Shown: piece after piece, positions 1-15,270 of the stretch
Numbering within the stretch: the stretch's first letter is position 1
How the letters are laid out: each line of letters begins with the position of its first letter
Assembly: GCA_031256445.1 (NCBI GenBank)
Contig: JAIRQN010000047.1
Span: 1 to 39,343 of the forward strand
Source: Treponema sp.
Lineage (GTDB): Bacteria; Spirochaetota; Spirochaetia; Treponematales; Breznakiellaceae
DNA: 39,343 bases
Direction: 5' to 3'
Position numbers and translations under genes: made by a program
The notes under the pieces: model-generated
Databases searched by the model: none
What the model was told of the DNA's origin: nothing
Seen by the model: the letters and a program-made list of their open reading frames with translations, nothing else

Positions 1-210
1 GATTATGATGTTTTTGTAGTTTTAAAAGATGATAGTGATAAGCCAATATTAGTATTACAAAATATTTACGGCGGACTGGCGCAAAACCCCAATTATAAAA
101 GCGTGGATGTCCTTGCCAATTATAAGAGCCGTTTTGAAGCAAGAAGCAATTTACCTACTATTGAGCGTACCATTGCGCAAAAAGGGGTGGTTCTTTATGA
201 CCGCGTTTGA
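1..210 (+). CDS. MNT-type nucleotidyltransferase (MntA-like antitoxin), C-terminal part
   Basis: The frame is open from the first base and ends with TGA at 208-210, so only about 69 C-terminal residues are present. They show the tail typical of minimal nucleotidyltransferases: a strand rich in D/V (DYDVFVVL), then DVLANYKSRFEARSNL, then TIERTIAQKGVVLYDRV. In MntA/HepT systems this protein AMPylates the HEPN toxin and so neutralises it. The next frame starts at 197 and overlaps this stop by 14 bases, the usual antitoxin-toxin coupling. That partner is broken, so the pair is probably inactive. The catalytic GSxAxG motif would lie outside the window and cannot be checked. Confidence 0.7.
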   Translation, partial: DYDVFVVLKDDSDKPILVLQNIYGGLAQNPNYKSVDVLANYKSRFEARSNLPTIERTIAQKGVVLYDRV

Positions 211-13363: not shown

Positions 13364-14356
13364 ATGACAAGGCCAGTAACATTATTTTCCGGGCAATGGG
13401 CGGATATGCCTTTCGAAAAATTTTGTGAGAAAGTAAAATCATTTGGTTACGAGGGAATTGAAATCGCCTGCTGGGGCGATCACCTGGATTTGAAGAGCGC
13501 GGCGACAGATCCAAAATATGTTGAGGAACGCAAAAATATTTTAAAAAATTACGGCCTTAAAGTATGGGCTATCGGAACTCATTTAATTGGGCAGTGCATA
13601 GGCGACAATTTGGATAGCCGCCATAACGGTTTTGCTCCTGCCAATCTCGCCGGAAAACCGGATGATATCCGCCAGTGGGCAATCCAGGAAATGAAGTACG
13701 CCGCTGCAGCCGCAAAAAATCTGGGCGTAAAAATTGTTACCGGTTTTATGGGCAGCCCGATTTGGGCGTACTGGTATTCATTCCCCCAGACTACAGAGAA
13801 GATGATTGATGATGCCTACAAGCAAATTGTAAGCCTTTGGTCTCCCATTTTTGACGATTTCGACAAAAACGGCGTCAGGTTCGCCCTGGAAGTGCATCCG
13901 ACAGAAATCGCCTTTGACTACTATACCGCCGAGCGGCTCCTTAAAGAATTCAAGAACCGTAAAACCCTCGGCTTTAATTTTGATCCTTCTCATTTAATCT
14001 GGCAGGGAGTTCTGCCGCATCTTTTTATCCGCGATTTCGCGTCAAAGATTTTCCACGTTCACATGAAAGATGCCGCAGTCACTCTTGACGGCAAAGCCGG
14101 AATACTCGGTTCTTTCCTGACCTTTGGCGATGTCAGGCGCGGCTGGAACTTCCGTTCGCTTGGACACGGAGATGTTGATTTTGAAAGCATTATCCGTGAA
14201 TTGAATTCAATCAATTACAAAGGTCCGCTTTCTGTTGAATGGGAAGATACCGGCATGAACAGGGAACTTGGCGCGAAAGAATCCTGCGATTTTGTAAAGG
14301 ATATTAATTTTTCGCCTTCAGACGTGGCGTTTGACGATGCCCTGAAAGTGGAGTAG
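13364..14356 (+). CDS. Sugar phosphate isomerase/epimerase family protein (xylose-isomerase-like TIM barrel)
   Basis: 330 residues. The barrel pattern of the AP-endonuclease-2/xylose-isomerase-like superfamily is clear: GYEGIEIACWGDHLD near 29, ALEVHPTE (Glu176), GFNFDPSHLIWQG (Asp207, His210), IFHVHMKDA (His233) and GPLSVEWEDTG (Glu292) give the metal ligands. Members act on keto-sugars or inositol derivatives (IolE/IolI/IolH types, epimerases). With the preceding Gfo/Idh/MocA enzyme it probably forms a two-step sugar or cyclitol conversion. No transporter lies nearby to name the substrate. The start is set by AAAGGAG 9 bases upstream. Confidence 0.88.
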   Translation: MTRPVTLFSGQWADMPFEKFCEKVKSFGYEGIEIACWGDHLDLKSAATDPKYVEERKNILKNYGLKVWAIGTHLIGQCIGDNLDSRHNGFAPANLAGKPDDIRQWAIQEMKYAAAAAKNLGVKIVTGFMGSPIWAYWYSFPQTTEKMIDDAYKQIVSLWSPIFDDFDKNGVRFALEVHPTEIAFDYYTAERLLKEFKNRKTLGFNFDPSHLIWQGVLPHLFIRDFASKIFHVHMKDAAVTLDGKAGILGSFLTFGDVRRGWNFRSLGHGDVDFESIIRELNSINYKGPLSVEWEDTGMNRELGAKESCDFVKDINFSPSDVAFDDALKVE

Positions 14357-14371: not shown

Positions 14372-14386
14372 GGGCGGATTAACTCA
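14372..14386 (+). repeat. tRNA 5'-end fragment, copy A
   Basis: GGGCGGATTAACTCA repeats the first bases of the tRNA-Val at 14437 (GGGCGATTAACTCA) with one extra G. Only the acceptor strand and the start of the D-arm are kept. Confidence 0.55.
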
Positions 14387-14394
14387 TTAGTTAT

Positions 14395-14424
14395 GGATGG
14401 ATTAACTCAGCGGCGAGAGCGCTA
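14395..14424 (+). repeat. tRNA 5'-half fragment, copy B
   Basis: Starts GGATGGATTAACTCAGCGG and continues CGAGAGCGCTA. It matches the 5' half of the neighbouring tRNA-Val through the whole D-arm with few changes and stops where the anticodon arm should begin. Its acceptor strand GGATG(G)AT can pair with ATCGTCC of fragment C at 14562-14568, allowing one G-T pair and one bulged G. Confidence 0.65.
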
Positions 14425-14520
14425 AGAATAGTTGGTGGGCGATTAACTCAGCGGCGAGAGTACTACCTTCACACGGTAGGAGTCACTGGTTCGAATCCAG
14501 TATCGCCCACCAACTATTCT
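14425..14520. repeat. Perfect 19-bp inverted repeat enclosing tRNA-Val
   Basis: AGAATAGTTGGTGGGCGAT at 14425-14443 is the exact reverse complement of ATCGCCCACCAACTATTCT at 14502-14520. The inner 7 bases are the tRNA acceptor stem; the outer 12 pairs lie in the flanks and include the encoded CCA. The precursor could form a 19-bp stem with the tRNA at its tip. Confidence 0.9.
14437..14512 (+). tRNA. tRNA-Val (anticodon CAC)
   Basis: A complete 76-base cloverleaf: acceptor GGGCGAT/ATCGCCC, D-stem ACTC/GAGT with loop AGCGGCGA, anticodon stem CTACC/GGTAG with loop TTCACAC (anticodon CAC, reading GUG), variable loop GAGTC, T-arm ACTGG-TTCGAAT-CCAGT, discriminator A, and an encoded CCA (14510-14512). 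It lies inside a perfect inverted repeat and is flanked by broken tRNA copies. Confidence 0.93.
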
Positions 14521-14527
14521 CAAAAAA

Positions 14528-14572
14528 TGCTACAATAGCAGGAGTCACGGTCGAGTCCAGTATCGTCCGCTA
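14528..14572 (+). repeat. tRNA 3'-half fragment, copy C
   Basis: Begins with a small hairpin TGCTA-CAA-TAGCA (14528-14540) in the place of the anticodon arm, then GGAGTCACGGTCGAGTCC and AGTATCGTCCGCTA, matching the variable loop, T-arm and acceptor end of the tRNA-Val with two single-base losses. The terminal CCA has become CTA. It is a decayed 3' half, not a functional tRNA. Confidence 0.65.
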
Positions 14573-14667
14573 ACCACATGAACTGATTATTTGAAATTAA
14601 CATTTAACTTATGAAATGTTTAACAGATGATTAGATATGAAGACGGAGACCGGAGGATGAGACAGTT

Positions 14668-15270
14668 ATGCAAACAGGAGATATAATATCGTTCGGCAGC
14701 CATAAATGGCGTGTTCTTGACATGCGGAAAAATGCGGCTTTGATTATAACTGAAGAAATAACAGAACAACGCCGCTACCATGACAGGTATGTTGGTATAA
14801 CATGGGCTGATTGCTCGCTGAGAAAATATCTTAATGGTGAATTTTATGACAAATTTACCGGTATGGATAAATCAAAAATAATACCGGTAAAAAATAAAAA
14901 TCCTGACAATCAATGGTATGGCACAAAAGGCGGTCCGGATACGCAGGACAATATATTTTTATTAAGCCTTGAGGAAGCAACATGCAAATATTTCGGTGAT
15001 AGCAGTTCAAAACTGTATAATAAAGGAAAAAATCAAAGATATTGGTTTGAAAGAAAAGATGAAAATAACAGTAAACGAATAGCGGTTAATAAAAAAGAAA
15101 AATGGTGTCATTGGTGGTGGCTTCGCTCTCCCGGTCGTGTTGGTGTGAAAGCTGTTTATATCTTCCCTGACGGCAATATAGGTATTCAGGGTAATAATAT
15201 ATTTAAAGGCAACATCGCCGAAGGCTATTGCAGGGGCGGCGTTCGTCCCGCTTTGTGGTTAAAGTTGTAA
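14668..15270 (+). CDS. DUF6273-domain protein
   Basis: 200 residues with the DUF6273 pattern. The N-terminus GDIISFGSHKWRVLDMRKN is followed by SLRKYLNGEFYDKF and, at the C-terminus, WWWLRSPGRVGVKAVYIFPD, then GGVRPALWLKL. This ending resembles sulfatase-modifying/C-type-lectin-like folds, which often act as ligand-binding or displayed modules. No signal peptide is seen here, so the whole protein is one cytoplasmic-looking domain. Function is unknown. A CGGAGG site lies 11 bases before the ATG. The gene stands alone, AT-richer than its neighbours, directly behind the tRNA cluster, so it may be an insertion. Confidence 0.75.
   Translation: MQTGDIISFGSHKWRVLDMRKNAALIITEEITEQRRYHDRYVGITWADCSLRKYLNGEFYDKFTGMDKSKIIPVKNKNPDNQWYGTKGGPDTQDNIFLLSLEEATCKYFGDSSSKLYNKGKNQRYWFERKDENNSKRIAVNKKEKWCHWWWLRSPGRVGVKAVYIFPDGNIGIQGNNIFKGNIAEGYCRGGVRPALWLKL

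Follow-up and report, generated by a model that had tools for sequence, protein, structure and literature searches.

How does a tRNA gene come to lie, framed by a perfect inverted repeat, between the two halves of another tRNA gene? The question is raised by a 39,343-nt stretch of DNA (hereafter the window; contig 31 of a 2.8-Mb draft genome), which very probably comes from a termite-gut treponeme and in which an intact tRNA-Val(CAC) is enclosed in this way (Table 1). We consider it probable that two processes act together: selection for a helix between the leader and the trailer of Val(CAC), and repeated self-nesting of the units that carry this helix.

Table 1. Features of the nested tRNA locus and its upstream neighbor (positions in the window)
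Feature	Position	Strand	Evidence
Xylose-isomerase-like TIM-barrel gene, upstream of the tRNA	13364..14356	+	PF01261; synteny
Short tRNA-Val 5' fragment (GGGCGGATTAACTCA), third partial copy	14372..14386	+	Direct repeat family D1
Outer tRNA-Val 5' half, ~positions 1-28	14395..14424	+	Direct repeat D2, 92%; beats shuffled flanks
5' arm (12-nt leader, paired to the trailer)	14425..14436	+	Inverted repeat; covarying in relatives
Intact tRNA-Val(CAC), encoded CCA	14437..14512	+	ARAGORN; Rfam RF00005, 64.9 bits
3' arm (A73 + CCA + trailer), perfect complement of the 5' arm	14509..14520	+	
Small hairpin TGCTACAATAGCA at the broken anticodon arm	14528..14540	+	Sequence, fold
Outer tRNA-Val 3' half, ~positions 43-73	~14541..14569	+	Direct repeat D3; BLAST positions 42-72

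The local anatomy given by the initial annotation was confirmed, apart from minor points. Both ARAGORN and Rfam report the intact gene, and its flanks extend the acceptor stem into an inverted repeat of 19 nt (14425-14443 and 14502-14520, 100% complementary), in which 7 pairs belong to the acceptor stem and 12 are extra. The inner unit folds at -47.1 kcal/mol, and the fold of the whole nest (14390-14575) is concentric as proposed (-71.4 kcal/mol, z -5.2). Directly 3' of the arm there is no T-run, CAAAAAATG being found there instead, and no promoter was recognised upstream of the window tRNA.

The outer pieces gave best ungapped scores against the tRNA of 21 upstream and 14 downstream, whereas shuffled flanks gave means of 6.4 and 6.6, respectively, and a maximum of 11. 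Both pieces stand above all flank shuffles, and the further 5' fragment ahead of the 5' half was also found. The 3' half is real as well, but shorter than the interval first assigned to it (14528-14572), the beginning of which is the small hairpin. The hairpin lies where the anticodon arm is broken. The outer acceptor strands can pair with each other, as had been noticed, but an extra G is present in them, and the outer T-loop is one base short. These two lesions mark the outer tRNA of the window, judged by its sequence, as a decayed pseudogene. Its own arms no longer pair.

An uninterrupted version of the locus was sought in relatives. The isomerase gene, which ends ~80 nt before the window tRNA, lies ahead of the tRNA, with the same orientation, in ~16 relatives. 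In 11 of them (G025, G022, G013, G021, G018, G027, G031, G003, G032, G005 and G002) a single unfragmented tRNA lies 10-65 nt past the isomerase stop codon, and most of these carry extended stems. Fragments of the window type were found at the same locus in G006, and in G012 with the 5' half only. On the other side of the nested tRNA of the window, a gene for a DUF6273 protein follows directly (14668-15270).

To see how general the stem is, we defined it as a leader-trailer helix of at least 8 bp, in register with the acceptor stem, and scored 128 tRNA-Val(CAC) genes across the order Treponematales. It was present in 60 of them, against 3.4 (maximum 9) when trailers were re-dealt among loci. 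Without any selection of genes, positions 1-12 of all 128 contained 838 Watson-Crick pairs, compared with 511 (maximum 571) after shuffling. Pairing of the flanks by chance is ruled out by these re-dealt and shuffled counts. Covariation was then scored in 25 arm-bearing genes, selected as such from several families: 11 of the 12 pairs change on both sides, and the score of 0.956, reached in 0 of 500 shuffles, compares with 0.253 for shuffled partners and no more than 0.25 when the partners were slid.

The stem is not a general tRNA feature of these genomes either, as shown by control genomes from three families. Val(CAC) was the only tRNA with a stem in G057 (1 of 36 examined) and in G042 (1 of 37), and in the window's genome 2 of the 29 tRNAs examined had one, Val(CAC) and Pro(GGG). 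Among relatives, it was detected in 1 of 42 other tRNAs and in 23 of 30 Pro(GGG) genes. Roughly every second Val(CAC) gene in the order lacks it, and in family f3 it is nearly always missing (present in 1 of 8). The isolate Rectinema subterraneum carries the stem as well. The arm sequences differ in every genome. The tRNA-Pro(GGG) stem was seen to covary too, with T-runs behind some copies (L026, that is G000:C49; L180-L208).

A T-run (5 or more T among 6 nucleotides, immediately 3' of the arm) was found in 29 of the 60 stem-bearing genes, versus 1-6 of 60 at other downstream offsets. An example of a stem-bearing unit folds at -50.2 kcal/mol. Upstream, a promoter of the form TTGAC-16..20-TANNNT was present in 74 of 128 Val(CAC) genes (1.35 expected), and promoters of the TTGACA/TATAAT kind often leave a leader hardly longer than the arm. 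Stem, T-run and promoter together have the anatomy of a putative intrinsic terminator, with the whole tRNA as its loop. As in known intrinsic terminators, a G+C-containing stem is followed by a T-run, within a short unit that has its own promoter in many relatives; the difference is that the stem is made of tRNA leader and trailer and the loop of an entire tRNA. As there is no T-run behind the arm in the window, and the outer arms there are unpaired, terminator function is not readable from the window. We take the inverted flanks to be, most plausibly, an RNA stem of Val(CAC) that is under selection and mostly terminator-like, and not the ends of an element.

From this arrangement we infer that transcripts end at the stem and T-run, and that RNase P matures stem-bearing precursors. 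Leader pairing with the 3' RCCA is known to hinder bacterial RNase P (PMC9433436), so that the effect of the extended stem on tRNA processing predicted by the initial annotation is plausible. Precursors with an extended acceptor stem have been described, in which the leader likewise pairs with A73-CCA and trailer, but by few pairs (PMC9433436). Here the helix has 10-12 pairs or more and is conserved by covariation, in one isoacceptor, across the order.

Nesting was examined in the same way. Of 129 Val(CAC) genes, 29 have fragments of the same tRNA on at least one side and 12 on both, while fragments on both sides were found in none of 41 other tRNAs and none of 29 Pro(GGG) genes. The concentric layout occurs in three families, with the outer copy split in the anticodon arm or the T-arm, and is not due to chance. 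In the usual nest (families f1, f4 and f5), positions 1-27 of the outer copy are followed by ~35 nt, the intact tRNA, another ~35 nt, and the outer copy from position 28 or 31 to 76. Pairing between the spacers adds another inverted repeat, with energies of -17 to -34 kcal/mol in five well-preserved nests. Other species of the window's genus have 1-3 units consisting of tRNA positions 1-31, a structured insert and positions 33-52 ahead of the intact gene, and the 3' end behind it. In such congeners the anticodon loop of the outer copy is cut by a dispersed palindromic repeat, and its T-arm by the intact unit. The window nest is a simpler form of this, with decayed outer arms. Inspection of the left junctions by eye revealed that in several genomes they share GTGC/GCGC with the leader of the unit, which fits template switching or a microhomology-based duplication as their possible origin.

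Such layouts might also arise by tandem duplication of tRNA-Val into three copies, with separate later losses of the 3' part from the first and of the 5' part from the third. Units of leader and tRNA positions 1-27 do stand in tandem before the intact gene in G191 (where extra copies lie on repeat-broken contig ends and have the same flanks), G035 and G030 have repeated 5' units ahead of it, and G014 has two near-complete copies. However, at the break one outer half takes up where the other leaves off (27|28, 29|30, 52|53), and in three genomes the outer leader and trailer still pair with each other, through stems that differ in sequence from the inner ones: 12 bp in G051 (f5), 12 bp in G091 (f4) and 10 bp in G238 (f1), with energies of -13.6, -11.1 and -20.7 kcal/mol against a control mean of -4.6. 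A T-run lies behind the outer stem in G051 and G238. In G238, moreover, an outer acceptor variant, GGACGAT/ATCGTCC, is shared across the nest, whereas the inner one is GGGCGAT/ATCGCCC, and the predicted fold of the nest is a double structure (z -11.9). The outer arms match poorly in G235, G245 and G006. Matching arms in G051, G091 and G238 argue that the outer halves were once a single gene that was entered by a copy, and the private sequence of these stems argues for insertion of the copy rather than for two independent tandem duplications. We therefore judge an origin by tandem duplication rather unlikely.

Insertion of a tRNA-bearing palindromic element into a tRNA, as initially suggested, is retained in one part only. 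The nesting of an intact unit within an older copy agrees with the concentric relatives, the unfragmented single-tRNA loci and the matching outer arms. For a mobile element the window's genome gives no support: arm-tRNA-arm has one copy there, its arms vary by genome, and no integrase was detected among the window proteins scanned with Pfam.

It is improbable, in our opinion, that the arms are a mere by-product of palindrome formation through a template switch, devoid of any role in the RNA. The arms of the window, perfect and yet followed by no T-run, would suit such an origin, as would a locus that plainly accumulates palindromes. Against it, the stem is a peculiarity of Val(CAC) and Pro(GGG) and in register with the acceptor stem, it covaries across families, and about half of its copies are followed by T-runs. 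Part of the arm complementarity could nevertheless be kept by palindrome repair rather than by selection on the RNA.

A little less probable still is the scar of an integrative element, in which the crossover of a tyrosine integrase in the anticodon or T arms would have left displaced pieces beside a restored tRNA. The breaks do lie in the anticodon arm and the T-arm, sublocations of tRNA genes that integrases use (PMC4383910), and the genomic-island scars collected in Islander share with these loci an intact tRNA and displaced pieces broken at the anticodon or T-arm. Here, in contrast, there is no island between the pieces, which sit within 100 bp on both sides, and the inserted DNA, only ~150 bp long, consists of a complete tRNA and its arms. 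Furthermore, 5' and 3' pieces flank a complete tRNA, and one integration does not give both.

It is very improbable that the outer halves still make a functional tRNA of the split or intron-bearing kind, joined after excision of the inner tRNA as an intron. The outer copy of G238 keeps its acceptor, T-arm, arms and T-run in a cleanly folding nest, and an interruption at the anticodon arm with halves held by paired sequences recalls the disrupted tRNAs of archaea and algae, but here the halves are in normal order and the outer copy of the window is decayed, with T-loop and acceptor damaged. Archaeal-style splicing of the outer copies is unlikely because the tRNA-splicing endonuclease (PF01974) was absent from six genomes, archaeal controls being positive, and a search for RtcB in five nested relatives found none (G006 and G238 among them are incomplete assemblies); RtcB was present only in G000. 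As for a group I intron, no Rfam family other than tRNA matched at the gathering score in the window, and none was found in eight related loci.

Selection on the helix together with self-nesting would account for the locus as follows. A leader-trailer helix lengthening the acceptor stem of Val(CAC) by ~10-12 pairs would be under selection in Treponematales. Where a T-run follows (about half of the stem-bearing genes), the nascent RNA would end in a terminator hairpin with the entire tRNA as its loop, and RNase P, perhaps with RNase III and 3' enzymes, would have to open or cut the helix to mature the tRNA. In the window, a perfect helix with no T-run, 80 nt behind the isomerase gene and with no recognised promoter, more likely serves to end or protect a transcript reading through from that gene, and may mark or protect a 3' end. 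A complete unit would have been copied into the anticodon arm of an older copy by duplicative insertion; the inner copy presumably stayed intact while the outer halves decayed, and such self-nesting would have recurred within the order. Template switching at hairpins and recombinase action at tRNA arms are candidate mechanisms.

A bolder version of this proposal can be offered tentatively, as a possibility that we do not favor. A self-contained unit of ~130 bp, made of promoter, tRNA and terminator, would copy itself into its own anticodon arm or T-arm and build recursive nests. Each nest would yield a single transcript, matured from its innermost tRNA outwards, and the pairing would tune the amount of a dispensable tRNA.

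The order-wide covariation points to a bacterial tRNA gene that lies inside its own terminator-like hairpin, even though pairing of the leader with RCCA is deemed bad for RNase P. Such genes would offer a test case for the maturation of these precursors and for the end of transcription at a tRNA. The nested copies would capture, stage by stage, how a tRNA gene is copied into itself, and self-nesting may thereby be a route to bacterial tRNA pseudogenes and tRNA halves that needs no integrated element. The parts are already known (tRNA gene, intrinsic terminator, tRNA pseudogene). For their arrangement, a search confined to the open-access literature returned no precedent, neither for a tRNA inside its own terminator nor for a bacterial tRNA within a tRNA.

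Some observations concern the dispersed palindromic repeat, a G+C-rich structured sequence of ~70-90 nt that reads hairpin, GYRCYG-ARAGGAANGATTTA, hairpin, CRGYR. It sits in the anticodon loop of outer tRNA-Val copies (L239:1501-1593, L254:1501-1591, L257:1501-1566, L258:1501-1567 and others), and appears reversed, at tRNA position 8, in G014 and G030. As the insert of these outer copies, it had been considered as an antiterminator switch, CAGTG pairing with CACTG on either side, an idea given up when the insert proved to be a dispersed repeat; its alignment varies too little to separate the two CAGTG/CACTG structures. It gave no Rfam match at the gathering score. An identity of the palindromes with integron attC sites was also discarded, since the core motifs, as generally known, were not seen by eye.

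The repeat is present elsewhere in genomes of the genus as well (16 of 40 genomes, with 13 copies in G019). In G019 it is found at stop codons, up to three in tandem (L234, L235, L238), and the genes bearing it encode related FGE/C-type-lectin-like proteins that end in GFRLVRP, reminiscent of the targets of diversity-generating retroelements, which have a 3' hairpin. In two other genomes (L250:1501-1575 in G011; L260:1501-1576 in G001) it lies directly against the 5' end of a CAT-anticodon tRNA, the start of which supplies the 3' strand of the stem of the repeat.
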